Shown here one piece after another: positions 247 to 38,294 of a stretch of 39,093 nucleotides of DNA. The stretch lies in the IMG/VR virus record IMGVR_UViG_3300037104_000277, positions 1-39,093 of that record, one strand, 5' to 3'. The DNA comes from a virus. How positions within the stretch are numbered: position 1 is the stretch's first letter; the number at the start of each line of letters is the position of its first letter. The position numbers were made by a program, and so were the translations under genes. The notes beneath the pieces were generated by a model. That model was given only the letters and a program-made list of their open reading frames with translations. It was not told the DNA's origin and made no database searches.

Positions 247-507
247 ATGAACAATCCCCACATAATCGTTGGCCCAAACAGTCGGTGTCTCTGCGGTCTA
301 TATGGGAGCAAGTCCTTTTCCTGCCAGCAAATAATTGCCGCCGCCCAAAGCCTTTACGATAAGGCTACCGCGAAAGTATCAGCTGACATGGATGCGGCGC
401 ATGACGCGGTCCTGATTTACACGGTCTTGGAAACCTTGATTCAAGACCGGCCAACATCTACGGACGGCAAAACGCCGTCCGCTCAGTCAACACAAAACAA
501 ACCATGA
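247..507 (+). CDS. Small hypothetical protein
   Basis: This 86-residue protein has no family I recognise. It has two Cys near the N-terminus (RCLCG) and a third a few residues later, followed by a helical middle region (about residues 28-68) and a polar Pro/Ser/Thr tail. The ATG at 247 follows a 37-bp gap after the holin-like gene. The stop overlaps the start of the exported beta-barrel gene at 504 in an ATGA arrangement, so the two are probably translated together. The position among lysis genes suggests a late function, but nothing in the sequence defines it. Confidence 0.6.
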   Translation: MNNPHIIVGPNSRCLCGLYGSKSFSCQQIIAAAQSLYDKATAKVSADMDAAHDAVLIYTVLETLIQDRPTSTDGKTPSAQSTQNKP

Positions 508-1079
508 AAAGAATACTCGCAATCGCAGTGTTGCTTGCGGCGGTAAGCCTGCAGGCTCAAATCACAACCAATCAGCCGGCCATCCCAACCAGCCCGGCCA
601 ACATCGTCCAGACAACCATCGGCTGGCTGTCAGACTTGGATACCAACATGCCGACGTTCACGGCCAATCGGGCGATGCTTTGGACCGGCGCAAGCTCCAT
701 CCAGGGCGGGCCGGTGTCTCTGGTCAACGACATTGGCCTGAGCTATGACGTGCTCCAGGTCCGAAAGACAAACTCGGCCAGCATATTCTACGTCGCCCCC
801 GAAGCACTCATGCGCTCCGGTGGGGTGTCAGGAACAGTCGTTAGTTGGCAGGCCGGTGTTGGCGCCGGAGTCATTCTCTACGACCTCCGCATCGGACTCT
901 ACGCTGATGGGGGTAGCTACGTTATCAGCGTCAACAAAGACCAGTCGAAAGTCTTTGGTGAAGTCGGCCTGCGCGTGATGAAGGGACTGGGAGCTCACTT
1001 CGCAACCGGCGTTGGAGTTGGGGCACAGTTCCCTGACAACCGGCAGGTATTCAGCGCATTGGTGTCCGCAAACTTCTGA
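504..1079 (+). CDS. Exported protein, probable outer-membrane beta-barrel
   Basis: The 191-residue product starts with a clear Sec signal peptide: Lys-Arg, a hydrophobic stretch (ILAIAVLLAAVSL) and a probable cleavage site after QA before QITT. The mature part has alternating hydrophobic/polar strands rich in Gly and ends in SANF. A C-terminal Phe is the usual recognition signal for the outer-membrane BAM machinery. Size and position after the tail and holin genes recall lambda Lom, though I see no direct Lom match. It could change the host surface (superinfection exclusion, serum or grazing resistance) or help outer-membrane disruption. The start overlaps the previous stop (ATGA). The barrel call is inference from pattern; export is well supported. 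Confidence 0.65.
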   Translation: MKRILAIAVLLAAVSLQAQITTNQPAIPTSPANIVQTTIGWLSDLDTNMPTFTANRAMLWTGASSIQGGPVSLVNDIGLSYDVLQVRKTNSASIFYVAPEALMRSGGVSGTVVSWQAGVGAGVILYDLRIGLYADGGSYVISVNKDQSKVFGEVGLRVMKGLGAHFATGVGVGAQFPDNRQVFSALVSANF

Positions 1080-17827: not shown

Positions 17828-17841
17828 AGTCTTTCCATCGT

Positions 17842-17871: not shown

Positions 17872-18004
17872 GTTCGCGCCTTCGCGGGCCCGCAGCGTTT
17901 TCCGCCACGCCGCCCGATTTCGGCCAAATAAGCCGAGATGCTTTTTTGCATTCCCGGATGATACACAAGCCGCTTGCGCAGAGCAATAAAAACCTTTCTA
18001 ATAT

Positions 18005-22981: not shown

Positions 22982-23078
22982 GGCCGTATAACCAGCGGTG
23001 ATGTTGGCTAACCACCGAACTTAACGTTGCGCGCGACAACGAATCCGCAATCGCGCGTTGACTTTTTGCGGTTTGCAA

Positions 23079-25025
23079 ATGGCAGACCAAAATAAAGGGC
23101 TTTCCAGATCGTTCAAAGTCGAACGAAATAAAATCGACGTTGAAAAACGGACAATTGAACTTTCGTTTGCATCCGAAACACCCATTGAACGTTGGGGAGA
23201 GAACGAAGTCCTTGGACACAGCGCCGGGGAATACGACTTCTCCCGAATCAAAGACGGGACACATCCTCTTCTGTTGGGCCATTCCGAACAAGACCCAAAC
23301 TCTCAAATAGGAGTGGTGGAATCCGCTGAAGTGAGAGACGGAAAGAGCCGGGCGATTGTCAGGTTCTCGAAGCGTAAAGACGCGGACGAAGTATTCCAGG
23401 ACGTGATTGACGGAATTCGTCAGAACATTTCAGTTGGTTATGACCGGACAGGAATAGTTTCCTCCGTCAAAGACAAAGATACGAATGCGGTGACGACTCG
23501 TTATCGTTGGATGCCGATCCACATCGCAATCGTTCCCGTTCCCGCCGATACCGCCGTGGGGGTTGGCAGGGGAAGAGTTGACTCCCCACAAAAACCGAAC
23601 GCAGACGAACAATCGAAAAATAATATGCCCGACGCTCCTAATACTTTGACCGTTGACGAGCCGAAAATCCGGCTCGATGAACGAGGGAAAGCTTTCGCCG
23701 AAGACCGAAATCGCGCGAAGGAAATCACCGATCTGAGCGATGAACTCGCGAAGAAACACGGCGCAAAAAACGACGGCACTCTGGAGACTGACATCCGCAA
23801 GCTGCAATCCGAGGCTATCGCGACCGGAATGAGCAAGGGTGATTTTCAACTTCGAGCGCTGACACTTGTCACCAATGCGACGCCGGCGAAACCTATCCTG
23901 CTCCGCGACATCGACCACGATGGGGCGAAGAAATACAGTCTTATGCGCGGAATCCAGTTTGCTCTGGCCGCGCGGGAAAAAGGCGGAGCGTCTGTCCCAT
24001 CCGAAAAAGACTGCTACGAGGGTGAGATGCACGCCGAGGTCATGCGCATCGCGAAGCAGCGCGGGGGACTTGGGTTTGACCCCGGCCCTGGATTCCAGGT
24101 GCCCGCCGATGCTCCGATGCGCTCGCACACTCCCGGAGGATCGCGCGCTCAGTTCATGCGCGACGTGAGTTCTCAAGCGGGTATCTTCGCTCAAGGTGGC
24201 GCATTCATCCCGACCGAGTTGCGCCTGCCTATTATCGAGCTGCTGCGCAACAAGGAGATTCTTTCTGAACTCGGAATCTTCACGATGGCTGGCCTGCAAG
24301 GCCCCATCGTCATTCCCCGGCAGACTGCCGCCGCGACCGCCTACAGCGTGCCCGAAATTGGTCAGCTTGCCGATACCGGCCAGTTGCTCGACCAAATCAC
24401 CCTGACTCCGCATCGTGTCGGTGCGACTCAGAAATACAGTCGCTTGTTTGTGATGCAATCATCGCCTGATGCGGAAGCGTTTCTGCGCGACGATTTGCTG
24501 ACTGTGATCGGACTGAAATGGGACTTTCATGGAATCGCCGGGCAGGGTGCGGGCGACGAACCACTTGGCCTGTTTAACAGCCCCGGCATCGGCTCAATTG
24601 TGCTCGGAGGTTCTCCGACCTACGCGCAAATGGTTGCGATGGAAACCGCAATCCGCAACGCGAACGTGCGCGATCCGCTGGCCTACATCTCAACGCCGAA
24701 CACTAAGGGCAATATGAAGGTCCAGGCGGAAGTGCTCGCCACCGCGACTACCACTATTTCCGGCGCTCAGAATGCGCTCTGGAAGCCGAACGACACCGTC
24801 AACAGCTATCCCGCGCATGAAACGAATCAGGTCCCGTTCAACAAGATCGCGCTCGGCGCGTGGCGGAATCTCATTCGCGGAATCTGGGGTGGAATGACTG
24901 TGATCGTCGATGTGTTCACATCGGCCACCACGGACCAAGTGCGGATCACGTTCAACACCTACGGAGACTATGCGCTACGGCACCCGCAGGCTTTCGTTGT
25001 CAGCGCCGATGCTGGCAATCAATAA
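23079..25025 (+). CDS. Fused HK97-type prohead protease and major capsid protein
   Basis: The 648-residue polyprotein starts with a U35/HK97 maturation protease domain (about 10-165): LLLGHS (His68) and QNISVGY (Ser118) are the expected catalytic residues, and WMPIHIAIVPVPAD the closing strand. A charged helical scaffold-like linker follows (about 180-290). The C-terminal part is an HK97-fold major capsid protein (YSVPEIGQLADTGQL, LRDDLLTVIGLKWDF, NPLGLFN-like EPLGLFNSPG). Self-cleavage would release the shell protein. ATG 23079 is preferred to TTG 23058. Protease, scaffold and shell are usually separate genes, and here the fusion follows a lambda-type terminase and portal. Confidence 0.9.
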   Translation: MADQNKGLSRSFKVERNKIDVEKRTIELSFASETPIERWGENEVLGHSAGEYDFSRIKDGTHPLLLGHSEQDPNSQIGVVESAEVRDGKSRAIVRFSKRKDADEVFQDVIDGIRQNISVGYDRTGIVSSVKDKDTNAVTTRYRWMPIHIAIVPVPADTAVGVGRGRVDSPQKPNADEQSKNNMPDAPNTLTVDEPKIRLDERGKAFAEDRNRAKEITDLSDELAKKHGAKNDGTLETDIRKLQSEAIATGMSKGDFQLRALTLVTNATPAKPILLRDIDHDGAKKYSLMRGIQFALAAREKGGASVPSEKDCYEGEMHAEVMRIAKQRGGLGFDPGPGFQVPADAPMRSHTPGGSRAQFMRDVSSQAGIFAQGGAFIPTELRLPIIELLRNKEILSELGIFTMAGLQGPIVIPRQTAAATAYSVPEIGQLADTGQLLDQITLTPHRVGATQKYSRLFVMQSSPDAEAFLRDDLLTVIGLKWDFHGIAGQGAGDEPLGLFNSPGIGSIVLGGSPTYAQMVAMETAIRNANVRDPLAYISTPNTKGNMKVQAEVLATATTTISGAQNALWKPNDTVNSYPAHETNQVPFNKIALGAWRNLIRGIWGGMTVIVDVFTSATTDQVRITFNTYGDYALRHPQAFVVSADAGNQ

Positions 25026-25057: not shown

Positions 25058-25672
25058 ATGAGACTCAAAACCATTTTGCGGGTTGCGGTAATCGCAAGCC
25101 TTGCCATCACCCCGGCTCTGTTTGCGCAGAACGGATTCGACATGTTCGGAATTCCCCGCGCCGTAGTGCTGAGTGGGGGAACCGCACTGGATGGAGCCGT
25201 CACGGTGTCCAACAACCCAGTTGATATTCGCGTGTTCAACGGAATCGCGTCCATCATCGCCGTCAGTGCGACGAATGGAGCGTCTGGTGTTGTTGGCGCC
25301 ACCACGCTCAAAATCACCACGGGCAGCGACCTGACTAATTGGACTGCGATCACGAACCTTGCCATCACGACCGCATCTTCGCTCACCGCGACGAACGGCA
25401 TGTATGGAAACACTAATCTGATCGCGACAAACTCGTGGTTGCTGCCGGGCGTAATCACATATCCTACGGCTTACTCCGCTGGATTTTCGACCCCCTACAT
25501 GGCGCCGGCGCAATTCACAAACACTACGGTCACATTGGCCGACAATAGTCCTGTCGCGATTGGCTTCCCAATAGAGAACGCGGGGAGATATATCCGCGCG
25601 CAGTGGACGACGACTGGAACCACCACCAACACCGGAACGGCGATTCTGCTGGGCCGCGCGAATTTCCCCTGA
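25058..25672 (+). CDS. Exported protein next to the capsid gene
   Basis: The 204-residue product begins with a strong Sec signal peptide (MRLKTILRVAVIASLAIT, cleavage expected after FA before QNGF). The mature part is Thr/Asn/Ala-rich and predicted all-beta (TTLKITTGSDLTNWTAITN). The place directly after the capsid gene would fit a decoration protein, but a cytoplasmic decoration protein should not have a signal peptide. It could coat released virions, act in the periplasm, or keep the hydrophobic end as an anchor. Function unknown. The frame is open further upstream, but overlaps the capsid gene. Confidence 0.6.
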   Translation: MRLKTILRVAVIASLAITPALFAQNGFDMFGIPRAVVLSGGTALDGAVTVSNNPVDIRVFNGIASIIAVSATNGASGVVGATTLKITTGSDLTNWTAITNLAITTASSLTATNGMYGNTNLIATNSWLLPGVITYPTAYSAGFSTPYMAPAQFTNTTVTLADNSPVAIGFPIENAGRYIRAQWTTTGTTTNTGTAILLGRANFP

Positions 25673-25706
25673 AACAAACCCACATCAACACAACCAAATT
25701 GATATT

Positions 25707-26063
25707 ATGGACTTAATCGCAAAACGAGATTTTGCTCTTGTCAAACCACTGCGCGGCATTCTTAAGATCGCCGACGCGAGACATCCCGACCATGTGCATA
25801 AAGGGGCGACGTTCAGCCTCGGAACCGCAAAAACATTCCAGGGTTTGCGCGAAGAAAACGCCGCGCTTGCTCAGACTGTTTCCGTCCTGGACTACGCCGG
25901 CTGCATCGCTGATGCGACCGATGAAAAGGCTGTAAAGGCCATCAAGGAAGAGATTGCCATTGAGGCTCGCCGAGTTGAGAAGCTCTCCAAGAAATCCGAC
26001 AACTCCGAAATGGCCGCTCTGACCGAACAACTCACGGCCCTGCTGGCCAAAGCCGCGAAGTAA
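25707..26063 (+). CDS. Hypothetical head/neck protein
   Basis: The 118-residue protein has a beta-rich first half (DFALVKPLRGILKIADA, ... HKGATFSLG) and a helical, coiled-coil-like second half (AIKEEIAIEARRVEKLSKKS, LTEQLTALLAKAA). It lies where head-completion genes are found. It is followed by a terminator-like hairpin, so the capsid transcript may partly end here. No family recognised. Confidence 0.6.
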   Translation: MDLIAKRDFALVKPLRGILKIADARHPDHVHKGATFSLGTAKTFQGLREENAALAQTVSVLDYAGCIADATDEKAVKAIKEEIAIEARRVEKLSKKSDNSEMAALTEQLTALLAKAAK

Positions 26064-26081
26064 ACTTTTTGGGTTGGTTGC

Positions 26082-26116
26082 ACCGCCGCGGCTACGAGTT
26101 GGCCTCGGCGGTTTTT
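26082..26116 (+). terminator. Rho-independent terminator-like hairpin after capsid genes
   Basis: ACCGCCG (26082-26088) pairs with CGGCGGT (26106-26112) around a 17-nt loop that has a further GGC/GCC pairing, and is followed by TTTTT. The next gene starts four bases later. It could reduce readthrough from the abundant capsid message into tail genes. Confidence 0.6.
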
Positions 26117-26120
26117 CATT

Positions 26121-26474
26121 ATGAGCGATTTCCAGGCACACGCACAGGCCCTGGCAGACTTCCAGGCGCGTCAGGGCGATGACTGCCCTTACTTCCTATG
26201 GGGAGGAAAGAAGTGCCAAGCAATCCCCGGGACGGCGCAGCGAAGGGCAGACCTATCCCCCGGCGGATTCCAGCTAAATGCAGACCTGCAATTCGAGTGC
26301 TTGGTGGCGCCGATGCTTACGCCGGCTGTTTCCGAAGTATCGGCTCTGAAATCCGCGCTTCTCACAACCACGATCAAATATCTTGAAGACGCCTATAAGG
26401 TTGATGCGGTTGGAATTCGGATGGGTGGACTGGTGATAAGGATCGAGTGTAGCTCAATCGATCAAAATGCCTGA
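26121..26474 (+). CDS. Hypothetical head-tail joining-region protein
   Basis: The 117-residue protein contains CPYFLWGGKKCQAIPGTAQR, strands (FQLNADLQFECLVAP) and a terminal KYLEDAYKVDAVGIRMGGL. Position between capsid and tail genes suggests a completion or stopper protein. No family recognised. It overlaps the next gene by 8 bp. Confidence 0.55.
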   Translation: MSDFQAHAQALADFQARQGDDCPYFLWGGKKCQAIPGTAQRRADLSPGGFQLNADLQFECLVAPMLTPAVSEVSALKSALLTTTIKYLEDAYKVDAVGIRMGGLVIRIECSSIDQNA

Positions 26475-27309
26475 CTCGCTGGACATTAAAATTGATGCGT
26501 CTGGACTTAATGCTGGGATTGTGGAGGCTTCGGTTTATTCCAAGCGCAGCTTGGCGGAAATCTGCAACACATGCGGATATTGGATCGCTGTAAATGCAAA
26601 GGCAAAAACCCCATTCGTTACCGCAGATAAAGTTGACCAGCAACTCCACATTATCAAAACATCGGAACAGCAAATCAGCGTAAGGACGGGCAAGACTCTA
26701 AAAAAGACGATTACAAGATATTCGTCCAGCAGTGCAGCAAGTGGAAAAGTGGCTGTGACAACGGGAGGAAAAACACGGGCAGTCCCGTTCGCCGCCCTCA
26801 TTGTTGCTGCCCGCGCAAAACAAGACTCGAAATACAACGCCTCAACCAATTCCAGATATGCGCTTGCAAAGAATCCATTCAAAGGACTTACTCGCGGACT
26901 TGGCCGGCAGAAGATGGCTGCACTTGTTGAGAGCATGACGAACTCCAGACACTCATCTGGAAGTTTTCTTAAATCCAGTTTGGTGCCAATTGTCCAGGCG
27001 CTAGAAAGTTTCACAAAACAGAAGTTCTCAAAAGGTGGTTCGTCTCCAAATGAAGCACAAAGGCAATATTACAACACCGGATTGGGCAGGGCCAGTCCGG
27101 CGTCGGACGGATGGTCGTGCTCTTGTGAACTCCTAGATGAATTGGGAATGCAAGGAGTGAACTCAGCTAGTCACAACAAGGCTCTAACAACTATTCTTGG
27201 CCCGATTTTCACATCCACGGTTCAGCACGAGGGAGAAGTCCAGGCTAAATATGCGCTGGATCATTACGAAAAAGAATTGTCAGATCGCGTAAACAAGTTC
27301 CTGAGTTGA
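26467..27309 (+). CDS. Hypothetical minor head/tail protein (gpZ-like position)
   Basis: The 280-residue protein opens LDIKIDASGLNAGIVEASVY, with an NAKAKTPFVTADK segment that resembles minor tail/neck proteins of the gpZ or HK97 gp10 type. Next comes a long basic Ser/Lys-rich middle and a helical end (HYEKELSDRVNKFL). It may be a tail-completion protein; the link is weak and positional. Confidence 0.45.
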   Translation: MPDSLDIKIDASGLNAGIVEASVYSKRSLAEICNTCGYWIAVNAKAKTPFVTADKVDQQLHIIKTSEQQISVRTGKTLKKTITRYSSSSAASGKVAVTTGGKTRAVPFAALIVAARAKQDSKYNASTNSRYALAKNPFKGLTRGLGRQKMAALVESMTNSRHSSGSFLKSSLVPIVQALESFTKQKFSKGGSSPNEAQRQYYNTGLGRASPASDGWSCSCELLDELGMQGVNSASHNKALTTILGPIFTSTVQHEGEVQAKYALDHYEKELSDRVNKFLS

Positions 27310-27325
27310 CAATTCCCAAATTCTG

Positions 27326-27886
27326 ATGGCCGCACAATTCAACAACGTCCGATCAAAACTAAATCGCGCAATAGCGGCGTATCTGGTTTCGGTTGGTTGC
27401 GGTGGAGTCGATGACGTGCTGCCGGCGAATGTCCGCACCTTCAAGACATACCCAAACACTCTCGTGCGGGCAACCATGAGCACACCCGATCCACCGCTAA
27501 CAGGTGTAAGGGAGGTTACAGTCCACATCTCAATCAAAGGCACTGCCACCGAATACCCAAATGAACCAAACCCAGGTACATCCCGTGTAGCTTTTGATGA
27601 TCGTGTGGCACAGACATATGACGCGCTGATGCAATCAGACGATGGAGAGACGCTCCGAGCAACCGCAGAGGCGATCACTGAATCGGGCAGGGCATTGGCT
27701 GTAGCGGTGGACGATAGCGCGGATGCCGTTCTGTGTGCGCAGAACAATTCCGACATGTTGGATTTCACTTGCTCCGCGTGGTATGACATGGGTGAGGGAG
27801 AAGGAGATGGAACAAGCGCGGAGGGGACGTCTTGGGAAGAGGTGCTGATTTTCAAAGCTCGCTGTTCACCGTCAAACGTAGATTGA
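27326..27886 (+). CDS. Tail-terminator-like protein (positional)
   Basis: The 186-residue protein has an N-terminal helix (VRSKLNRAIAAYLVSVGC), a strand region (VREVTVHISIKG) and a regular helix (VAQTYDALMQSDD), broadly like gpU-type tail terminators that bind a tail tube end. It comes right before the tube-region genes. The C-terminus is acidic. Confidence in the specific role is low. Confidence 0.45.
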   Translation: MAAQFNNVRSKLNRAIAAYLVSVGCGGVDDVLPANVRTFKTYPNTLVRATMSTPDPPLTGVREVTVHISIKGTATEYPNEPNPGTSRVAFDDRVAQTYDALMQSDDGETLRATAEAITESGRALAVAVDDSADAVLCAQNNSDMLDFTCSAWYDMGEGEGDGTSAEGTSWEEVLIFKARCSPSNVD

Positions 27887-27890
27887 TTTT

Positions 27891-28262
27891 ATGGCCGACA
27901 TTCCAGCCCCACAGAGCATATCTGTAAAAGTTGATCCTGGCGCTCAGACACCAATAAAAGTTCCAGTGTCCAAGCTCCCAGCGAAGCTGATTGCAGCAAT
28001 GAAGCAAACGCAGAAGCCGAAGCAGGGAAAGCCGGACGGTTGGTGGAACCTATCCGATTTCTCCGGCACGTTGCCTGGCCTGCTTTCGTTTATCGATGCG
28101 GCTAAAGACATTCCAGACCACTGGAAAATCGCAATCAAAGCGGACGCGCAAGCAGCCTCGGCAGCCGGCTCGAATTTTTTCTACCTGGACGCTCACTACC
28201 ACATCGACCGAAACCGAACGCTGCATTACAGCCTTCAACCCACCACCGCAAAGTTGACTTAA
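27891..28262 (+). CDS. Hypothetical tail-region protein
   Basis: This 123-residue protein has a Pro/Lys-rich start (VDPGAQTPIKVPVSKLPAKL), a conserved-looking WWNLSDFSGTLPGLL segment and a terminal strand pair (FFYLDAHYHIDRNRTLHYSL). No family recognised. It lies four bases after the previous stop and 13 before the next start. Confidence 0.55.
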   Translation: MADIPAPQSISVKVDPGAQTPIKVPVSKLPAKLIAAMKQTQKPKQGKPDGWWNLSDFSGTLPGLLSFIDAAKDIPDHWKIAIKADAQAASAAGSNFFYLDAHYHIDRNRTLHYSLQPTTAKLT

Positions 28263-28275
28263 TCCAATTTTCGAT

Positions 28276-28791
28276 ATGGCAGACGAAATCAAGACTCCTG
28301 AAAAAACCGAAAAGCAAAAAGCGATTCAAGCTTACCACGATGCCGCAACTCCCGAGGCGAAGGCTGAGGCGGTTGAAAAGTATCCGGTTTTGAAAACACT
28401 TTTCGCGCACATCAACCACGCGAAATCCGTTGTCGGTCTGTTGGTGATGTTCTTTGCGCTCGCGGCCAACGGCCAGACTCTCTTCATCGGCTCTCCCGCC
28501 ACAGTGTCACCGGGGACAACCAATACCGGATGGTTCGCAATCGGTTCAGTTCCGATGCCGATCAATACCTATCAGATTTACAGTGGTGGAATACCAACAA
28601 CGAACACGTTCAGCGGGACTCTGCAAATCGGTTTTGACGGAACCAACGGCATTCCAGTCTCGATTTACTGGCCCAGTTCAACCAACGCGCACACGGATGT
28701 TTTCAATCCGGCTGCAAGCAACGTGACGATCTATGCGCGCTGGGTCATAACCACAACGAACGCGGTTCAACTCTCCGGCACCTACAAATAA
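28276..28791 (+). CDS. Protein with internal signal-like segment
   Basis: The 171-residue product has a charged, helical 48-residue N-terminus (KTPEKTEKQKAIQAYHDAAT), then a hydrophobic segment SVVGLLVMFFALAANGQ that reads like a Sec signal peptide ending before QTLF, and a beta-rich Thr/Asn/Gly C-terminal domain resembling the mature part of the exported protein at 25058. It could be a membrane-spanning protein, or an in-frame ATG at 28447 could give a short exported form. Function unknown; it lies between tail genes. Confidence 0.55.
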   Translation: MADEIKTPEKTEKQKAIQAYHDAATPEAKAEAVEKYPVLKTLFAHINHAKSVVGLLVMFFALAANGQTLFIGSPATVSPGTTNTGWFAIGSVPMPINTYQIYSGGIPTTNTFSGTLQIGFDGTNGIPVSIYWPSSTNAHTDVFNPAASNVTIYARWVITTTNAVQLSGTYK

Positions 28792-28792
28792 T

Positions 28793-29212
28793 ATGGCAAT
28801 CACAAAACGCGGCAAGGCAACTGTAGAAGGTATTCCCGGGTCAATTGATCTCATCGTCTATCCTGTCAAGCAATCCGGCAAGGGGACGATGAACTTCGAT
28901 GAGGAAATCATCAAAGATGAACACGGTCTTTCTGTGGCTTGGCTGGCGCGTGACACCCACTACCTGATGGATTTCGCGTTCAAGCTTCTTGGTGACACCC
29001 AGACGCACGCACTCTCCGGTGGAGTGTTCCTACAGCCATACGCCACCGTAACCCTGTCAGGATTCGACCTGCCCGCATTCAATGGCACCTACCAGAACAT
29101 TTCCGGCCAGGAGATTGATCTTGGTAATACCAAGGTTGGTGATCTGAATACCAAATTCCGCCGATACGACGATCCGACTCAGAACACTCTGAGCCAGACT
29201 GTTCCTCAGTAA
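28793..29212 (+). CDS. Probable tail tube (major tail) protein
   Basis: The 139-residue protein is compact and beta-rich, starting MAITKRGKATVEGIPG, with strand pattern and a central helix (THYLMDFAFKLLGD) of the size and order of small major tail proteins. The place two genes before the tape measure supports this. No strong motif defines the family. ATG 28793 lies one base after the previous stop. Confidence 0.5.
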   Translation: MAITKRGKATVEGIPGSIDLIVYPVKQSGKGTMNFDEEIIKDEHGLSVAWLARDTHYLMDFAFKLLGDTQTHALSGGVFLQPYATVTLSGFDLPAFNGTYQNISGQEIDLGNTKVGDLNTKFRRYDDPTQNTLSQTVPQ

Positions 29213-29217
29213 GTGTT

Positions 29218-29838
29218 ATGCACGACCTGGCGCTAGCCGACTCGGCGCGGCCTGCGCCAGTCTCAATACTCGGTTTGCCGATGCTGCCATACAGCGTCGG
29301 CCATGAGACTATTCTTCTCAGCCAGCGCAATCCCATTGTGCTGGACGGATTCGAGCAACTCTCGTTCAGCGAAAAGAGACAAGCGATAATACGCGCTGCG
29401 CTTGTATGCTACCGCACATGGGAGCAGAACAACCGCCCGGAACGAAACCTTAGGTTGTGGCTGTGGAAGATTCGCAAATCAAACTGGGCCTCTGAGATTG
29501 CTGAATTCATCAACTACAGAGTGTCCGGCTCACTGTGTCCCCCATCACCATCGCAAGCCGCCTATGAAATCGCGGCGGGTGTCCAAAATGAAGAGACTGG
29601 ACGATCTTTCGGCTCCCCTCATGCCGCATGTTTAATCGCTTTCCTTTGCCCAATTCACTCTTCACTCGGCTATGTAACTCCGTGGGATGTTCCGTTGGGG
29701 CTGGCTAATTTCCTGTATTTCTCACAACTTGAAATGGCTGGCAATGTCAGGATCAAAAACGCGCGAGAGTCTCAGGCCGAATCAGAATTAGCAGAGCATG
29801 AATCCGCTATAAAGAAGGAGCGTCAATGCCCGGATTGA
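29218..29838 (+). CDS. Tail assembly chaperone-like protein
   Basis: The 206-residue protein sits exactly between tube and tape-measure genes, the normal place of tail chaperones. The N-terminal half is helical with FSEKRQAIIRAALVCYRTWE and RNLRLWLWKIRKSNWASEIA, and the tail is charged. The usual programmed frameshift product is not evident: I found no seven-base slippery sequence near the end. The end overlaps the tape measure by 13 bp. Confidence 0.5.
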   Translation: MHDLALADSARPAPVSILGLPMLPYSVGHETILLSQRNPIVLDGFEQLSFSEKRQAIIRAALVCYRTWEQNNRPERNLRLWLWKIRKSNWASEIAEFINYRVSGSLCPPSPSQAAYEIAAGVQNEETGRSFGSPHAACLIAFLCPIHSSLGYVTPWDVPLGLANFLYFSQLEMAGNVRIKNARESQAESELAEHESAIKKERQCPD

Positions 29839-31232
29839 TGGTAATAATCGGCGGCAACGCGAATAAGCTCAAGAGCGAGCTTGACCGTGTTGGACACATG
29901 ATTAGCTCGACGTTCGCGAGCAGACTTGCGGGGATAGCGTCCATAGGAGCGATTGAAGAGGTGGCGCGCCGAACTGCCGAATATGCAGAGTCTGTCTCTG
30001 TCCTATCACAGCGACTCGGAATCTCAACTGATGCGGTTCAGGCATGGGATTATGCGCTAAAAATGAATGGAAGTTCGATTCAAAATGCCACAAAATTTTT
30101 TGAAAAGTTAGCTCTATCTCGACAAAAAGCATTGAAAGGAAATACCGATTTAACACAATCCTTCAAGAATTTTGGAATCACGCTTGACGATCTAAAGAAC
30201 AAGCGCCTGGAAGATTTAGCTTCTCAGATCGCGCAAGCGTTCAAAGCCGGAGATCCTCAAAAACTGATTGCCGACCTGCGAGATGTAGGAGGCCGAGGCG
30301 CCGGAGAGATGGTGGCTGCGTTCCGAAGTGGGTTGAAAGACTTCATGGACGACGCCCGCGAGATGGGAATAATAATTGGGAAAGACACAATTGATGGGTT
30401 GCGGGAAGGGATGGAGGAATCCAAGACTGTGTGGATGCAGTTCCGAGTGGAGGCTGCAACAGAACTCAACGCGTGGATTTATTATACAAAATATGCGGCG
30501 TTCGAGGTCCAATCCGTATGGGCTATGATGCGTGGATATTTGAAGGGTGGCATAACCGAGTCTCGGGCAGAAATCGACCGCGTAAAAAAAGATTGGTCCG
30601 ATGCTGCAAAAATGAGACTTGATAGATTGAACGCCAGGAAGAAATCTTTTTCTGGAGGCGCAGACGACGAAGATACTAAGGCAGAAGCAAAACGGGAAAA
30701 AGAAGCGGAGATGAGCGCGAAAAGAATACTCAATCTGAAAGAGGAACTATCCAGAATAGAAGACGCGACATCACTTAAACAAATGACAGCTGCGGAGAAG
30801 GTGATTGAATTGACGCGCAGAAAAGCAGAGATAGACAAAAAGCTTGCTCAAGGATCTGGAACACCAGCAATCCCAGCAAGAGCCGAGACTCGCAACGAGA
30901 CAATCTATCGGATCAATCACAACATACCGGGAAACGGAATGGTTCCGGCCGTAGCAGCAAAGCCAGGAATGAGCGAGGAAGACAGACTTAAACTGGAAAT
31001 AGAAAAAGCCAAAATAAACGAAGAGCTTGCTGCGGCAGAAAAACCAGGAAAGACACGCGAAAGAATGTCGCATGGTGGCGTAACATCATTGCAGCAAATT
31101 GGAGGATATACGTCTCCGGCAAGCGCAACACTGATCGACGTGAATCGCAAAATGGAACATCACCTGAGTGCTATTCACAAGGCCGTGACTGAGCACAATG
31201 GACACTCTGGATTGTACGAAAGGAAGTTCTAA
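29826..31232 (+). CDS. Tail tape-measure protein, short
   Basis: The 468-residue protein is mostly helical: GNANKLKSELDRVGHMISST and LSQRLGISTDAVQAWDYALK near the N-terminus are typical of tape-measure proteins, followed by a coiled coil (KREKEAEMSAKRILNLKEEL). It sets tail length; at roughly 0.15 nm per residue it predicts a tail near 70 nm, which is an estimate. The lack of long hydrophobic segments is notable. The start overlaps the chaperone gene; the stop overlaps the next start (TAATG). Confidence 0.8.
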   Translation: MPGLMVIIGGNANKLKSELDRVGHMISSTFASRLAGIASIGAIEEVARRTAEYAESVSVLSQRLGISTDAVQAWDYALKMNGSSIQNATKFFEKLALSRQKALKGNTDLTQSFKNFGITLDDLKNKRLEDLASQIAQAFKAGDPQKLIADLRDVGGRGAGEMVAAFRSGLKDFMDDAREMGIIIGKDTIDGLREGMEESKTVWMQFRVEAATELNAWIYYTKYAAFEVQSVWAMMRGYLKGGITESRAEIDRVKKDWSDAAKMRLDRLNARKKSFSGGADDEDTKAEAKREKEAEMSAKRILNLKEELSRIEDATSLKQMTAAEKVIELTRRKAEIDKKLAQGSGTPAIPARAETRNETIYRINHNIPGNGMVPAVAAKPGMSEEDRLKLEIEKAKINEELAAAEKPGKTRERMSHGGVTSLQQIGGYTSPASATLIDVNRKMEHHLSAIHKAVTEHNGHSGLYERKF

Positions 31233-32068
31233 TGGCGCTACCAATCGCACGTGGAAGTCCGCTGCTACAAAAGCAAAACGAGTCTTTCAAATACGACCCG
31301 ACTACTGGGTTGATTCATAGTTGGGATTACAAAGGAATTTCTCAAGCCTACGCAATCATGGCCCAGCAGGACTATGCTAGGGCCGGAATCCCGTGCGTTC
31401 TGACACTGCACCAGGGAGACACAGCAACACTCGAAATCGATGACCCAACGTTCCAATATACACTCGACACTTGGGAAGTTGCGGACAACGAAGAGTCTCC
31501 TGACGCGTGGCAGAATCCAAAAGTCGAGCAAGTAATTTACGACATTGCTTCTGGATATGCCGCACTTTCTGACGGAAGCGCTTTAACTTTTGGAGAGGTT
31601 ATGGCCGCCATCCGGCAGGCGCTCGCGAACGATCAACCGTCAGATGGTGATGGAGGAGCGTTCCAGGATGGAGCACTGTTGCCATTTTACGGAACGAGCA
31701 TCCAGAGAATCTATGACGACTATCAGGCCGGTGGCACAGAATTCCGTCGTGCTCAATATGTGCTGCGGCACAAGACAAACGCTCCACGCATCTGGACGAC
31801 CAACGTTGCCGACATTGGAGTTGAACAGATATATTCAACATCTCAGCTATTAACTGAGGCGTCAGATGCATCGCTGTGGATTTATCCGCTTCCGCCCAGA
31901 CTCGCATACAAGATTGCAAATCTTCCAAGTCCGATCCCGCGCGCGAATTATATGTGGGGCTGGCTGAAATCTGGAACCACAGAATCGACCGCAGCAAACA
32001 ATCGAATCGACCTCACCACTGAATATTGTCTCTACCAGTGGTCACTCGACAAATACGATGCCTTCTGA
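31232..32068 (+). CDS. Tail tip / baseplate-type protein
   Basis: This 278-residue protein directly after the tape measure, in distal-tail position, has SFKYDPTTGLIHSWDYKGIS, ATLEIDDPTFQYTLDTWEVA and a mixed alpha/beta pattern. No family recognised by sight. AAGGAAG precedes its ATG. It overlaps the next gene by 11 bp. Confidence 0.55.
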   Translation: MALPIARGSPLLQKQNESFKYDPTTGLIHSWDYKGISQAYAIMAQQDYARAGIPCVLTLHQGDTATLEIDDPTFQYTLDTWEVADNEESPDAWQNPKVEQVIYDIASGYAALSDGSALTFGEVMAAIRQALANDQPSDGDGGAFQDGALLPFYGTSIQRIYDDYQAGGTEFRRAQYVLRHKTNAPRIWTTNVADIGVEQIYSTSQLLTEASDASLWIYPLPPRLAYKIANLPSPIPRANYMWGWLKSGTTESTAANNRIDLTTEYCLYQWSLDKYDAF

Positions 32069-32660
32069 TTTTCCACGCAAGCCGAGCGGCTCAGATGAAG
32101 AGATGCGGTTTCATCGAACCGTTTATGACAAAACGTTTGGACCTGCCGGACAGATCCGCAACTCCTCAACTGTCAAGGTAAGCAGGACGAGCCGAGGAAT
32201 CATTCTGCACGCATCCCCGCCATCACCTGGAGGGGGTAAGCAATTTCTGTATCGCATCACGAGTCTTTACAATGCGGACTATTTCGGAGCGCGAAAATGG
32301 AATCCGCTGGCCAACAATGGTAACGGAGACTACATTGGTGCCGAAGAGAACATAGCGAAGTGTATCACTGGAAGGATGCCGGATTCTGAATTGATTGACG
32401 GATTCGGAACGAACTATGTTTACTCCGACGAGAATCTACGTTCTGCCGCAACCCAATATTCCACCACTGAATATGATGTGATGCATCCGCGCTACACTGC
32501 TTTTGATCCAGACAACCCGGACGACTATGGCAACCTGATTATCGTTGCGCGAATTCCAAACGGAACAGGTGTAACTGATGACAACAATAGACAAATCTAT
32601 TTGATGGAAATACAACCGACTCGCTATTGGACCTACAAGAATGAACAGCAGCTTACCTGA
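32058..32660 (+). CDS. Hypothetical tail protein
   Basis: The 200-residue protein is beta-rich with KVSRTSRGIILHASPPSPGG and FLYRITSLYNADYFGARKWN. Such short motifs occur in tail-fibre-associated proteins, but no assignment is safe. Overlaps on both sides (11 and 20 bp) place it in the tail-tip operon. Confidence 0.55.
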   Translation: MPSDFPRKPSGSDEEMRFHRTVYDKTFGPAGQIRNSSTVKVSRTSRGIILHASPPSPGGGKQFLYRITSLYNADYFGARKWNPLANNGNGDYIGAEENIAKCITGRMPDSELIDGFGTNYVYSDENLRSAATQYSTTEYDVMHPRYTAFDPDNPDDYGNLIIVARIPNGTGVTDDNNRQIYLMEIQPTRYWTYKNEQQLT

Positions 32661-33426
32661 TCTCACGGTCCCGATAGAGAGTCCCGCCGCCGCACTAAAA
32701 GAGAGTCCTGGATTTGCGCTGATGGCGCACAAGAAGGATTACGATTTCATGTTTGGCTGTTCAGTGTTTGGACAGACGATGAGGCTTGCATTCCAAGGTG
32801 AAGGATCAGAATTCTTCGGAGGTATTGAGAATGGGGCGGCGGATGGAACAATTCTTGTTTTCAGGACTCAAAACGGTGTAAATCAAATCGGTAATTATAT
32901 TAGCCAGCTTCCTAGATACTCCGATTCCATAAGCATCTTCACAATAGGACTTGATGGGGATCATTACTACAATGAATATTTCCATGTCGAGCTTGCAAAC
33001 GACAGTGGTTGGACATTCTGGAGCAGATGCCAGAACACTGTGGGCTTCGATGGAAGCGGAGGAGTGGCTATTTTTGGCAATGAGATACATTCAACCGTGA
33101 ACGGATTTGCTGTTTATCCGCAGGCGATGGCCTCTGTTTCTGCGGCCGGGGCCTGCATTTGCCTATGCGCTGTCGGAACGAAGGGAACAATCTCGATCCA
33201 TCAGAAGAGCGTAACATCTGGCAAATTGCAAGGCGCGGAATCTAAACAATATGTTGACATTACCGAGCGCGGGATTCAGGAATTTGCGTGCGATGAAAAC
33301 CATGTGATTTGCTTTTGGATCGGCAAGCATCCCGACGATGTTCCGAGCCGGTTCAGCCATCCCGACTTCGCTCCATCTGAATTCAATTTGCAGGTGTTTG
33401 ACAATGTTCCCGATTACACGCGTTGA
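32641..33426 (+). CDS. Hypothetical tail-tip protein
   Basis: The 261-residue protein is probably all-beta (HKKDYDFMFGCSVFGQTMRL, ILVFRTQNGVNQIGNYISQL), with a Cys cluster AGACICLCAVG near 178. Position suggests a structural tail component. No family recognised. The Cys cluster could bind metal or form disulfides in the virion. Confidence 0.55.
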   Translation: MNSSLPDLTVPIESPAAALKESPGFALMAHKKDYDFMFGCSVFGQTMRLAFQGEGSEFFGGIENGAADGTILVFRTQNGVNQIGNYISQLPRYSDSISIFTIGLDGDHYYNEYFHVELANDSGWTFWSRCQNTVGFDGSGGVAIFGNEIHSTVNGFAVYPQAMASVSAAGACICLCAVGTKGTISIHQKSVTSGKLQGAESKQYVDITERGIQEFACDENHVICFWIGKHPDDVPSRFSHPDFAPSEFNLQVFDNVPDYTR

Positions 33427-33446
33427 CTAAATCCCATAATTGATTT

Positions 33447-34109
33447 GTGGCAGACCTAAAACTCTATATCAACACCAGCAATAACTCGCTGGTTGGCGGT
33501 CAATCGTCAACGCAGGCGATTGACACTGGCTCACTGCCGCTATTTTTTGGAGACGTTCTCAACCTTGTAATCTACCTCCTGCAAACCCCAACGGGTTACA
33601 ACTCGACCGACCCGAGCAACTCCAAACTCGAAACAGTATCGATAGCGGGACTTCAACTGTTCTTTTACCTCGACGATGGGAAGATTGGCGGGACTGTCTA
33701 TACAAGCCAAGTAGCCTTTGAGACCGACCCGACCGATTCATTCTTCATCGGCACATTGGCGCTGAACACGGAGCCACTCCAAACGCTGCTCGGAACGGCA
33801 AACAGCGCCACGGCATGGGTGAAAGTGGGTTATGTCCAGAATGGCCAACAGGTCACAATATTATCCAAACAGGTCAGCATCGGCGTGGGCATCCCCGTTG
33901 CTGCGCTCCAGGTGCCGGCCGGGTTGACACCCTTGGCTGCCGAGGTTGCTAATCAGACTTATTTTCCACAGCAACCCGTGGCCGGAAAACCGCTCTATTT
34001 GGAATCGCCAAATGGAAAGATATTCGTGCTGCGCGTAGTTGATGACCCTGATGGTAATGCGCATTTTGAATCTTCACAGTTGAATTTTGAATCTTCACAG
34101 TTGAACTGA
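33447..34109 (+). CDS. Hypothetical tail-fibre-region protein
   Basis: The 220-residue protein starts GTG at 33447 (DLKLYINTSNNSLVGG), is beta-rich with VYTSQVAFETDPTDSFFIGT and ends with a duplicated FESSQLN. The C-terminal domain (KPLYLESPNGKIFVLRVVDD) may be a small beta domain. A phage receptor-binding or fibre-attachment role is possible by position only. Confidence 0.55.
   Translation: MADLKLYINTSNNSLVGGQSSTQAIDTGSLPLFFGDVLNLVIYLLQTPTGYNSTDPSNSKLETVSIAGLQLFFYLDDGKIGGTVYTSQVAFETDPTDSFFIGTLALNTEPLQTLLGTANSATAWVKVGYVQNGQQVTILSKQVSIGVGIPVAALQVPAGLTPLAAEVANQTYFPQQPVAGKPLYLESPNGKIFVLRVVDDPDGNAHFESSQLNFESSQLN
34064..34105 (+). repeat. Tandem 21-bp repeat at gene end
   Basis: TTTTGAATCTTCACAGTTGA plus A (21 bp) occurs twice back to back, 34064-34084 and 34085-34105, adding a second FESSQLN to the protein just before its stop. 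It looks like replication slippage. Copy number may vary. Confidence 0.9.
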
Positions 34110-34111
34110 AT

Positions 34112-35689
34112 ATGAAAATAATCATCGCTCTTTTACTGTCAGCATTGTGCGTGTCCGCACAGCCAATCATCACAGCCAGTGTTACCGTCACGAACATAGC
34201 GGGAACGACTAATGGCCAAACCATAAGTGTCAATGGAGTGGTGCGGACTTTCACAAACAACGTTACGTTTGCCAATGTCCAAATCTCGACCGCGACGAAT
34301 ACGACTTTGGTGGCATCAAACATCTTCGTTGCTTACGCCTCGTTCCCGCAGCCAAACATGAGTCTGTTCACATTTCCGCAATCCTCAGTTCTATTTCAGT
34401 CCTATCCAGGGTCCGCAATGACGGTTCTTATTTCCCCAGGCTGGGGAGCGTTGTCCTATTCAACAAACTCGCTCAGTTCTGCTACTGTGATGCGAGCTCC
34501 TATAACTGTGGCCGGCCCATTTGAAATCACCAACGTCGCCAATGCAATACGTGATTACATATCGAGTCAGGCAGTGACAAATCAAATCCCAACAAATGCT
34601 CCGGCGATGCAATTGTTTAAGCCGTTCGACTCGAACATCCTTAACAACGCCGTAGCAAACTTGGGGACGAATTCAACCAACTTTACACTGATGATGGGGT
34701 TGAATGGAACCAATTACGTCAACTTTGTCACAAGCCTTCAATCCAATTTCTTTTGGAGTGTAGTTGGAGGAATCGGAAGTGCGGCGTATCAACCCGTAAC
34801 AGCATTCCAACCCGCGAGCACGACTCTGTCAAATATCAGCGGGCTAGACCTATCGCAGCTTGTTCCTTGGCTAACAAACAACGCGATTGTATTGTATAAC
34901 ACCAACGCATTAGATGGTAGTCAGATATTCAGACTTGAAGCGCAACCGCTCGGCCCCATGCGACTCTATTACGCAGACGCAGGCGCAAACCCATTCCTGA
35001 CCGTCAATGGACCATCCGAGGGGAGTCCTAACGACATAGCAATCAAAGCGTTGTCGTCCGGTGTTACCCGTATCGAGATTCAACAGCCGGAGAATAACGG
35101 ACAGACAATATTGAGAGACTCTGCCGGAGACAATTCTCTGACAATAACGAAAACGAGTGGGAATGTCCTGCTTAAAAAGCCAATCACATTCAACACCGTT
35201 TCACTTCCAGGCGTTGCGATGGGATTGGTTACGAACTTCGTAAACCAGACAGCGTATAGTGGTTCTGGTTCCGGGGAGTTGAATACCTTCACAATCCCGT
35301 CCGGAGTGTTGACAAACATCGGAGATACAATCATTCGGAGAATTGGAGCGGGAATATCCGGGTCCGGTGGCGGGAAGATCGAAGTTGATTTTGCCGGCGG
35401 ATCGATTGGCGACACTGGCAGCATTGCCACGACCTCCACTGGATCGATTTATGTTCAATGCGAAATCACCGTCATTGACGATACTGATGTTGGCGTGGTT
35501 GTCAGCACAACCTCGCAAGGAACAGCATCTGCCACTACCACGGTCTGCCAAAAACTTAGCGTTGACAGCCTTACATCAAACGCACATGATTTTCAGTTGA
35601 AACTTTACACCACTGGCGGAGACACTGTGACAATCTTCACCGACAATATTTATTACGCCCCGTCACCGGCGTGGGCAGGGCTACAATAA
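34112..35689 (+). CDS. Exported Asn/Thr-rich fibre-like protein
   Basis: The 525-residue product begins with a signal peptide (MKIIIALLLSALCVSAQ) that closely matches the one on the next gene. The mature part is Asn/Thr/Ser-rich and probably all-beta, with repetitive TNAPAMQLF and GSGGGKIEVDFAGG segments. The C-terminal domain (GKIEVDFAGGSIGDTGSIA ... FTDNIYYAP) resembles a small jelly-roll found on fibres. Tail location and signal peptide conflict: either it is secreted, or the hydrophobic start is used for assembly. ATG 34112 lies two bases after the previous stop. Confidence 0.6.
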   Translation: MKIIIALLLSALCVSAQPIITASVTVTNIAGTTNGQTISVNGVVRTFTNNVTFANVQISTATNTTLVASNIFVAYASFPQPNMSLFTFPQSSVLFQSYPGSAMTVLISPGWGALSYSTNSLSSATVMRAPITVAGPFEITNVANAIRDYISSQAVTNQIPTNAPAMQLFKPFDSNILNNAVANLGTNSTNFTLMMGLNGTNYVNFVTSLQSNFFWSVVGGIGSAAYQPVTAFQPASTTLSNISGLDLSQLVPWLTNNAIVLYNTNALDGSQIFRLEAQPLGPMRLYYADAGANPFLTVNGPSEGSPNDIAIKALSSGVTRIEIQQPENNGQTILRDSAGDNSLTITKTSGNVLLKKPITFNTVSLPGVAMGLVTNFVNQTAYSGSGSGELNTFTIPSGVLTNIGDTIIRRIGAGISGSGGGKIEVDFAGGSIGDTGSIATTSTGSIYVQCEITVIDDTDVGVVVSTTSQGTASATTTVCQKLSVDSLTSNAHDFQLKLYTTGGDTVTIFTDNIYYAPSPAWAGLQ

Positions 35690-35690
35690 T

Positions 35691-38294
35691 ATGAAATCAA
35701 TACTTGCTCTCCTACTCTCTGCTCTGGCCGTTTCCGCACAAACGAACACGGTGGATATTACCTGGAATTGGTATGATTTCCAATTAAATCCGCAGGCGGT
35801 TCGCAGAATCACGATGACTCCTTTGCCTGACCCGTTCGCGGATTATGCGGGCGGACTAATCAGCCTATCTCCAAAGTCAGCGGTGACTGGGCTGTATGGA
35901 AGTTACACCTATAGCAATACAGTCCCTGGATACTGCTATCGAATTCAACTCGACACCCCCTACGGTTCCACTGTTCGGACGTGCGGAATACCGGCGACCG
36001 TCTCGGGACCAATCAACGGACGCGATTATCTTGGAATGAGGATCGGACCAAACTTCTTTTATCTCTACCAGACAAATGGGGGACAGACTGCATTGCAGGT
36101 CCAGGCCGCAGTGTTGCAGGCGTCCAACTCGCTAGCTGGACAGATAGCGGGTATTTCAAGCCCGACGAATGGATTGACATCAAACCAGGTGGCCTCGGTG
36201 GTAGAGGTCGTAGCCTTGCCGATTGCGCAAGCCGTGGCCGCTACGAACCTTCCGTCGGGCGTCGTGACTAACGGACAGACGAACGTCACAATCAGCGGAA
36301 CATTCCACGGCCAGGCGGACTCGGCGGGGAGCGCGTCCGAGGCAACGAATGCGCAGCGGCCGGAGATTGTTTCGGAGTTGGCTCAGGCGGTGCTGGGAAT
36401 CGATGGGAATGAGCATTTCACGGTGACTGGAGTCGACTGGATGATCACCAACCTGTTTTCGTGGATGTCGCTTATTAGCCAAGCGGGGAACAACGTCAAC
36501 GTCACCGGGGGGATGCAGGTGTCGAACATTTTTTCGACGTGGGGGACGAACACTTACAACGGGAATTCGGTCTTTAATGGGAGCGCGAATTTCAACAACG
36601 GGGTGTCACTTACCGGGGCGGGTTACTTTTCCGGGGATGCCTTTGGGTTGACGAATTTGCAGGCGAGTCAGTTGACGGGGAGCGCGTCCGAGGCAACGAA
36701 TGCGCAGACCCTCGGCGGTGTTCCAGCGTCGGCTTACGCGCAGACCAACGGCGCGACGCTGAACAACGTCACGATTGCGAGCGGGAATTTAGGCACAATC
36801 TCCGTCACGAATTTAGTTATGCCTCTTGTGCTTCGCGACCAAGGGTCTTTACAGGCGTTCATCAACGCAGTGGCCGCCGGGGCCAACAATAGCCACACAC
36901 TGCACATCCCGGCAGGCCTCTGGCACGCCACGAATATTGCGTTACCAGCATCGTGCCTCGGCACGGCGAGCATTGCGGGCGCGCCATGGACAATTGAAGG
37001 TGAAGGCCAGCAGCAGACGTTTATAGCCACGATGGCGACGAATGGCTTTATTTTCGGATTCCAAACTTCGGGCGGGGGCGGCGGCCCAAGGGTGGTTGGC
37101 GTCACCATTAAAGACCTATGTTTGCTTGGTCCGGGGGTGACCAACATTGCAAACGGCGCCGGCGCAACGGGCATTTACGAGACGACTAATTACAGCACGG
37201 TCGGAATCTTCGTGGGCATCACCAATGCTTACGCGTCCGATACTTGTGGTTACCAGATCAAGGTCCAAAAATGCGCCGCTTTCGGGTTTCGATCTGCGGT
37301 GGAGTTCTCGAACACGGTCACGTCCGCAGTCGAAGACTGTATTTTCGAGGGGAACTGGCAAAGCGATATTCACGCCGACAAATGCGACACATTTAAAGTT
37401 TCTGGCGGCAATTACGGCTGGAGTAGCTTCCCCATGACAATAACGAATTTCCACAAGGCCGCGATGTGGTTTACGGGTGGGGGCTTAGGCGCTGTGGTCA
37501 CGAGCTGTGAAATTGGGGGAGTGTGGCGGGGAATTTTTAACGATGGCGGGGAATGGAACCTAGTCGTGATGGGCGGTAATACCGAGTCAATCTACAACGA
37601 AAAGTTCCTACAGAAGGGAGCCATAATGACTACGTTCATTGGGCCGATGGATAATTTCACGCTTACGACTGGCGTAGCATATAATGTGACAAATATTACT
37701 GGCGGAGGCCTAGGGGGGTTGCTGGTAGTTAACCCAGTGGGACCCAATTGCACAGGGACGAGCTACGAATTTGGAGTTACTGGCACAGCGCAAGTGTGTT
37801 ACGTGAACGTTATGGCCTACGGCACAGTGAATAGCCCCAACTGCCTGAACAACGGAACACCAACAGTCCTCAGTCCTCGCGGTCTATCGTCTTCTGAGGC
37901 GATTGGCCAATTGCAAGTAACGAAGCTCGGGGTCGGCGTGGCGGCAGTAACTCCATTTGATGTCGAAGTGTCCTCTTTTGAGCGCATGTTGTTTCAGAGC
38001 CACCAGGCGTCCCCACTGCCCGCGTGGGGGACCCCGCTAACTCCAATGGCCACCGCCGTCAGCTTGCGCTCATTTAGTGGAGACCTGTCAGCCAATGAGG
38101 GAATAAACATCGACTCGCCCCGGCTCACTACTGACGGAGACTTCTACATAAGGTCCAACTTGGTGTTCAATGGCACGGCTATGGGCTTGACAAACTCTGC
38201 TTTGGCCAGAGTGCCGGCGGGTTACGACTCGATTCAATTCTACAGCAACCACGTTTGGAGGGTGACGCCAACTGCGACGAACCTCATTAACTGA
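35691..38294 (+). CDS. Tail-spike-like protein with beta-helix and signal peptide
   Basis: The 867-residue protein opens with a signal peptide (MKSILALLLSALAVSAQ). Residues 200-370 carry fibre-type repeats (GYFSGDAFGLTNLQASQLTG, SASEATNAQ twice). Residues about 390-660 look like a right-handed parallel beta-helix (GLWHATNIALPAS, GVTIKDLCLLGPG-like, CGYQIKVQKCAAFGFRSAV), the fold of pectate-lyase-like spikes that bind or cut surface glycans. The C-terminal part (FDVEVSSFERMLF ... DSIQFYSNHVWRVTPTATN) resembles fibre tips. It is the likely receptor-binding protein. It contains a 32-bp exact DNA repeat. Confidence 0.65.
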   Translation: MKSILALLLSALAVSAQTNTVDITWNWYDFQLNPQAVRRITMTPLPDPFADYAGGLISLSPKSAVTGLYGSYTYSNTVPGYCYRIQLDTPYGSTVRTCGIPATVSGPINGRDYLGMRIGPNFFYLYQTNGGQTALQVQAAVLQASNSLAGQIAGISSPTNGLTSNQVASVVEVVALPIAQAVAATNLPSGVVTNGQTNVTISGTFHGQADSAGSASEATNAQRPEIVSELAQAVLGIDGNEHFTVTGVDWMITNLFSWMSLISQAGNNVNVTGGMQVSNIFSTWGTNTYNGNSVFNGSANFNNGVSLTGAGYFSGDAFGLTNLQASQLTGSASEATNAQTLGGVPASAYAQTNGATLNNVTIASGNLGTISVTNLVMPLVLRDQGSLQAFINAVAAGANNSHTLHIPAGLWHATNIALPASCLGTASIAGAPWTIEGEGQQQTFIATMATNGFIFGFQTSGGGGGPRVVGVTIKDLCLLGPGVTNIANGAGATGIYETTNYSTVGIFVGITNAYASDTCGYQIKVQKCAAFGFRSAVEFSNTVTSAVEDCIFEGNWQSDIHADKCDTFKVSGGNYGWSSFPMTITNFHKAAMWFTGGGLGAVVTSCEIGGVWRGIFNDGGEWNLVVMGGNTESIYNEKFLQKGAIMTTFIGPMDNFTLTTGVAYNVTNITGGGLGGLLVVNPVGPNCTGTSYEFGVTGTAQVCYVNVMAYGTVNSPNCLNNGTPTVLSPRGLSSSEAIGQLQVTKLGVGVAAVTPFDVEVSSFERMLFQSHQASPLPAWGTPLTPMATAVSLRSFSGDLSANEGINIDSPRLTTDGDFYIRSNLVFNGTAMGLTNSALARVPAGYDSIQFYSNHVWRVTPTATNLIN
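36325..36707 (+). repeat. Dispersed exact 32-bp direct repeat in spike gene
   Basis: The 32 bases at 36325-36356 (starting CGGGGAGCGCGTCCGAGGCA) recur exactly at 36676-36707, 351 bp apart and in the same frame (SASEATNAQ). This could drive deletion or domain shuffling of the 117 codons between. The DNA between is unusually rich in GGGG runs compared with the neighbouring fibre gene. Confidence 0.9.

Follow-up and report, generated by a model that had tools for sequence, protein, structure and literature searches.

The viral record IMGVR_UViG_3300037104_000277, analyzed here over its whole length (positions 1 to 39,093; hereafter, the window), is a near-complete tailed-phage genome; its 39,093 bases include an end repeat of 158 bases (99% identity). 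Directly after its major capsid protein (MCP) gene it encodes a capsid cement/decoration protein that starts with a predicted Sec-type signal peptide, and this leader is kept throughout a clade of related phages. Further leaders stand on a tail-adjacent protein and on two proteins at the position of fibres or spikes. In the textbook view tailed phages assemble in the cytoplasm, and leaders on particle proteins are unexpected. We propose, and give about an even chance of being right, that the leader-bearing proteins are Sec-exported, signal peptidase I-cleaved surface proteins of the virion that join the particles at lysis.

Genes are named here by the position of their first nucleotide, and a slash marks a predicted cut. 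Leaders were called with a home-made rule, and their conservation across relatives is stronger evidence than the calls themselves. An earlier note on this DNA had reported leaders at 25058, 34112, 35691 and 504 and an internal one at 28276, and all five were recovered as rule calls of a kind rare in composition-shuffled proteins, which gave a leader in 1.35% and a leader with Gln at +1 in 0.08% of cases. Four of them begin at the ATGs of these positions and consist of a short basic n-region, an uncharged hydrophobic core and an A/Q site: MKRILAIAVLLAAVSLQA/QITT in 504, MRLKTILRVAVIASLAITPALFA/QNGF in 25058, MKIIIALLLSALCVSA/QPII in 34112 and MKSILALLLSALAVSA/QTNT in 35691. By the rule and by homologue conservation they fit Sec export and signal peptidase I processing, with a small-x-Ala site near residues 16–30. 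Gln is at +1 in all four of these N-terminal leaders, and among 45 plausible window genes no others have a Q+1 leader; one weak non-Q call was made at 27326. The hydrophobic segment of 28276 lies inside the protein, from about residue 51, and reads SVVGLLVMFFALAANG/QTLF.

Sequence profile, fold and gene position all identify the product of 25058 as a capsid cement/decoration protein. It matched PHROG 5707 (E 1.3e-4), and a hidden Markov model (HMM) built from four mature domains of the leader-bearing family reached leaderless MCP-adjacent proteins of other phages (L080, E 6e-6; L006, E 8e-4). When the leader-bearing and leaderless groups were aligned separately and compared profile to profile (hhalign), they matched with 95% probability (E 2.7e-8). 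The leaderless form, which lacks the signal peptide, was found in 31 records of phages (Xanthomonas, Escherichia, Pseudomonas, Synechococcus and others), where it is annotated once, as 'minor capsid protein', and it also resembles the C-terminal part of the major tail protein family phrog_9522. Searched against the PDB, the joint profile found exactly two sequences below E 0.01, the cementing protein of the Bordetella phage BPP-1 (E 1.3e-4) and the Carin1 decoration protein (E 3.4e-4); with the profile of the leader-bearing group alone the Carin1 protein was again the top match, yet only at E 0.035. The predicted structure of 25058 (predicted local distance difference test score, pLDDT, 73) has a jelly-roll or beta-sandwich fold that matches the BPP-1 cement protein (Z 9.4), the phage 7-7-1 capsid (Z 8.6) and the Carin1 capsid (Z 8.1). 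From its family membership, the protein is predicted to be bound outside the mature capsid.

Relatives of the window also have a leader on their 25058 homologues. The first relative identified (L013) has a homologue at 42% identity with the leader QALA/Q, the homologue in the syntenic relative G001 (L146) has GAFA/Q, and across a five-member alignment of the family (35–44% identical to the window) the leader is free to vary at every position but M1, A23 and Q24. Single-sequence scans with the MCP and with 35691 gave no matches, alignments being required; an alignment-based scan with two peptide patterns from the mature domain, not the leader, returned 27 viral contigs. Together with the window and two phage contigs binned in a single metagenome-assembled genome (MAG), these made up the loci set, of which 29 loci entered the capsid tree. 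The decoration gene directly follows the MCP gene in 29/29 loci, with a gap of 19–74 bases where its start was resolved automatically, and the leader is present in all of them. After sequences more than 70% identical were removed, 21 of the 23 remaining homologues had A/Q. That selection maintains the leader is shown by the relatives, in which it and its A/Q are kept at low identity, with the cleavage site as the best conserved part. The conserved Gln, in turn, argues for real cleavage at that site.

A tree built from 109 major capsid proteins placed all of the 29 leader-bearing members in one clade (support 1.0). The only other member of this clade, L110, is on a contig that ends within the MCP, so that the next gene is out of view. 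The next branches outward, L006 and L016, whose placement is weakly supported (0.40), have a leaderless homologue after the MCP. Given one leader-bearing clade with leaderless nearest outsiders, the signal peptide was probably gained once, in the ancestor of the clade. Among the 137 loci of the first set with a visible post-MCP gene, Q+1 leaders were found in members of this clade only, bar L046; that call (ALAA/QLQT), outside the clade, scored near the threshold and has an unlikely long n-region. Separately, some relatives have an additional leader gene (A/QYF[SD]G...) between portal and MCP (L013, 1018–1503; L110, about 1762–2094; L218, 7660), which is absent from the window.

The earlier note had listed 28276 as having an internal leader. 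The segment is real, and homology with L217, L230 and L212 points to a gene fusion instead of an unusual signal. In L217 and L230 the two parts are encoded apart, close to the tail tube gene: by a leaderless gene of about 55–77 residues and by a gene whose leader is N-terminal, as usual. Residues 1–49 of 28276 match the small gene of L217 with Z 14.4 and the same end point, and that of L212 with Z 10.1; an HMM match of this part has E 4.9e-12, and the small gene of L230 is a weak match on its own; the remainder matches the leader genes of L217 (E 3e-7) and L230 (E 2.7e-8). By this homology, two neighbouring genes that relatives keep apart are fused in frame in 28276, which accounts for the internal position of its leader. 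A frameshift was thereby ruled out as the cause of the odd start.

The genes 34112 and 35691 are located at the end of the tail module, as expected of fibres or spikes. Their orthologues in G001 sit at the same place and have leaders of their own (TSEA/Q and PSMA/Q); the orthologue of 34112 contains YadA-head repeats (Pfam E 5e-9), and the N-terminal module of 35691 is 50% identical in G001. The AlphaFold model of 35691 has pLDDT 30, and no fold is claimed. The collection scan found the N-terminal modules of these proteins in G001 only, whole-record searches added weak matches in three more relatives, and the modules were not found in cultured phages. As the earlier note had it, the two leaders are near copies of each other as protein (14/17 identical). 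A recent duplication was ruled out, as only 36/51 DNA positions are identical and the genes have no similarity beyond the leaders.

Leaders follow the same pattern in other relatives with enough sequence. G009, G010, G011, G012 and G014 each have a leader-bearing decoration protein, the first four also encode a leader-bearing protein next to the tail tube, and fibre-position proteins with leaders occur in G009, G012 and G014, with one leader gene near the right end of G011. Neither in the relatives nor in the window do MCP, portal, tail tube or tape measure have a leader; in G009 the rule made one call within the tape measure, starting at an internal GTG, which was treated as noise. The mature parts of 25058, 28276, 34112 and 35691 are poor in charge (Lys plus Arg 1.9–3.3%, Asp plus Glu 1.9–5.4%) and contain 27–34% Thr, Asn and Ser, against averages of 10.3%, 11.6% and 17.5%, respectively, in 16 leaderless structural proteins of the window; leaderless members of the decoration family have 6–10% Lys plus Arg and 7–13% Asp plus Glu. 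Within 28276 the sequence turns from charged to charge-poor at the hydrophobic segment. Such composition is expected of proteins outside the cytoplasm, although other causes are possible, and the leaderless neighbour 33447 is also poor in Lys and Arg, a caveat on composition as a sign of export. With the leader and A/Q conserved at about 35–44% identity and the mature parts charge-poor, the export of these four proteins is well supported as a reading of sequence. Export for disulfide formation was ruled out as a general reason, since 25058 and 28276 lack cysteine.

That virion proteins are normally free of Sec signals, the premise of the earlier note, held in two control phages. None of the 20 structural proteins of Cellulophaga phage phi14:2, most of them detected by mass spectrometry, has a leader, and no leader was found in the structural proteins checked in phi38:1, which are annotated by similarity; the premise thus holds for these Bacteroidota phages. 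Each of the two also has a small non-structural gene with an A/Q leader (phi38:1, L158 31090–31383; phi14:2, L159 9–266).

Table 1 Leader-bearing genes of the window and their leaderless MCP neighbour, with predicted parts.
Feature	Coordinates	Strand	Basis
Leader of late protein after holin-like gene, SLQA/Q	504..557	+	Home-made rule
Mature part of 504 protein, 173 residues	558..1079	+	Open reading frame
MCP fused to head maturation protease, leaderless neighbour of 25058	23058..25025	+	phrog_617 E 2.6e-90, phrog_4523 E 2e-42
Sec-type leader of decoration protein, predicted cleavage after ALFA	25058..25126	+	Rule call and homologue conservation
Mature jelly roll, capsid cement/decoration type	25127..25672	+	PHROG 5707, profiles, PDB matches, model fold
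N-terminal 49 residues of 28276, in relatives a stand-alone gene of 55–60 residues before the tail tube gene	28276..28422	+	Z-scores, HMM
Internal hydrophobic leader of fused tail-adjacent protein, ends AANG/Q	28423..28473	+	Rule call; composition switch
Predicted exported part of tail-adjacent protein	28474..28791	+	Homologues with N-terminal leaders in L217, L230
Leader of first fibre-position protein, CVSA/Q	34112..34159	+	Rule call; G001 orthologue TSEA/Q
Mature fibre-position protein, 509 residues	34160..35689	+	Position; G001 orthologue with YadA-head repeats
Leader of second fibre/spike-position protein, AVSA/Q	35691..35738	+	Rule call; G001 orthologue PSMA/Q
Mature fibre/spike-position protein, 851 residues	35739..38294	+	Position; N-terminal module conserved in G001

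From the leaders and how they are conserved, the membership of 25058 in the decoration family, its single clade and the charge-poor composition, we hypothesize that the carriers are peripheral virion proteins: a decoration protein (25058), a small tail-tube-adjacent protein (28276) and fibres or spikes (34112, 35691). They would be synthesized late and cross the inner membrane via Sec, signal peptidase I would cut after Ala or Gly, mostly exposing Gln, and in some hosts the Gln might be cyclized to pyroglutamate. The exported proteins would be stored in the periplasm while leaderless heads and tails assemble in the cytoplasm, and they would bind the finished particles once the inner membrane opens at lysis; actual export and cleavage, virion presence and attachment at lysis are thus predictions of the proposal. 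In other phages, finished capsids can take up some decoration proteins in vitro. The proposal agrees with the distribution of leaders, which surface proteins have and core proteins lack. A fuller version, to which we give a little less than an even chance, is a two-compartment virion in which a cytoplasmic core of head and tail and a periplasmic coat of decoration, tail-tube-adjacent and fibre proteins are joined only at lysis.

Several observations weigh against attachment to the virion or against a uniform Gln-exposing site. The best fold matches of the 25058 model are YomS (Z 12.9) and the C-terminal domain of XepA (Z 12.5), and XepA is exported and missing from mature PBSX particles (PMC6834076). 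The tail-adjacent leaders of L217 and L230 expose Ala at +1, and two of the 23 non-redundant decoration homologues have no Gln there (L215, AYA/LIGF; L229, ALG/VGF). We found no precedent in the open-access literature for a tailed phage that exports decoration or fibre proteins of its virion, subscription papers being mostly outside that scope. The fold matches, together with export as the natural consequence of a leader, speak for the main rival explanation, which we consider rather unlikely and in which the proteins are exported and cleaved yet are not parts of the virion: former decoration and fibre proteins would have been recruited to the envelope or the surroundings, where they might mask receptors against superinfection or help lysis. 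The parallel would be XepA of PBSX, in its export and its absence from particles. Against this, the decoration gene directly follows the MCP gene in every locus and lies outside any lysis cassette, and its sequence profiles indicate cement/decoration proteins, with XepA and YomS missing from the PDB profile matches of the family up to E 10. No leaderless alternative fibre-position protein was identified in the window or in G001, so that under this explanation the phage would be without fibres. The earlier note had suggested secreted proteins that modify the envelope, attach to virions after lysis or use the leader as an assembly anchor; export is the part that gained support, and the decoration-family membership of 25058 favours post-lysis attachment over a pure envelope role.

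An anchoring role is less probable still: we think it distinctly unlikely that the leader tethers a body on the cytoplasmic side of the membrane, or that the phage head protease removes it during assembly. A head protease is indeed fused to the MCP, and signal-like MCP starts in Porphyromonas gingivalis phages have been ascribed to prohead protease cleavage (PMC10367356), but the basic n-region orients the body outward, the conserved small-x-Ala/Gln is a host signal peptidase I site, and the mature parts are unlike cytoplasmic virion proteins in composition. That the leaders are functionless chance hydrophobic starts, which about 1.4% of shuffled proteins have, or mis-called starts is very improbable, given a leader in 29/29 loci at low identity with the cleavage site best conserved, and leaders on several unrelated gene families within the same genomes.

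Gln is the residue exposed on most signal peptidase I substrates of Bacteroidetes, where it is then cyclized (PMC5837995). By our home-made rule, Gln was at +1 in 33% of leaders in a Hymenobacter sample and in 24% in an Acidobacteria sample, so that Q+1 does not fix the host. Searches of 395 Bacteroidota and 396 Acidobacteriota genomes gave no believable match. Of the genome contigs matched, only one has a decoration gene, and it is a phage contig binned into a MAG with the label Patescibacteria; this MAG contains two different phages of the clade (L206, G004:C311; L207, G004:C340), which makes the binning doubtful and probably an artefact. A host in Verrucomicrobiota is a tentative guess.

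All five leader-bearing genes are in the late region, which runs from the terminase large subunit through a head-tail protein, portal, the protease/MCP fusion, 25058, and head-tail and tail genes to the tape measure, tail-tip genes, 34112, 35691 and a gene called holin-like solely for its size and a hydrophobic segment. Provided that the 158-base end repeat closes the map, 504 lies downstream of the holin-like gene. For the 504 protein no homologue, no PHROG match and no significant Pfam family was found, and a structural role is not supported. Beyond the repeat (window 1–250 and 38613–38960) the reading frames diverge, and the contig ends may stem from two strains. After the holin region, the window (1082–1705) and G001 (L154 6663–7268) have a predicted serine hydrolase with a GHSNG motif, possibly a lysis esterase. 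Elsewhere in the window are a pentapeptide-repeat protein (6492–7193; Pfam PF00805, E 8e-52) with a 15-base tandem repeat in 21 registers, and a radical-SAM-like protein (17219–17986), alone on the minus strand and adjoining the packaging genes, which is below the Pfam cut-off and has weak matches to spore photoproduct lyase and DUF5131.

If capsid decoration proteins and receptor-binding fibres are indeed exported and mature outside the cytoplasm, assembly order, lysis timing and virion N-termini would need rethinking for this lineage, as would its dependence on host factors (Sec, signal peptidase I and perhaps glutaminyl cyclase). Because one family of decoration proteins has both exported and leaderless members, the question is open to direct test.

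The decoration family is known, as are signal peptides; their clade-wide combination on virion surface proteins was not found in the open papers searched. Phage-encoded proteins with the same signal peptidase I site and Gln at +1 have a counterpart in the Q-rule proteins of Bacteroidetes, including genes of P. gingivalis phages (PMC5837995, PMC10367356); those phage genes were reported with function unassigned, whereas the window has it on families of decoration and fibre-position proteins, with no support for a Bacteroidota host. XepA of PBSX and YomS of SPbeta, both from Bacillus subtilis prophages, have the closest folds to the 25058 model, and XepA is likewise exported (PMC6834076), but their genes belong to lytic cassettes instead of following the MCP, no sequence-level match to them was found among PDB profile matches up to E 10, and XepA is not in mature particles. 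The BPP-1 cementing protein (3j4u), the Carin1 decoration protein (8cjz) and PHROG 5707 have the jelly roll, the profile similarity and the MCP-adjacent gene in common with 25058; the leaderless cement/decoration homologues are about 120–145 residues long, whereas the mature part of the leader-bearing family has about 180–190 residues and is charge-poor.

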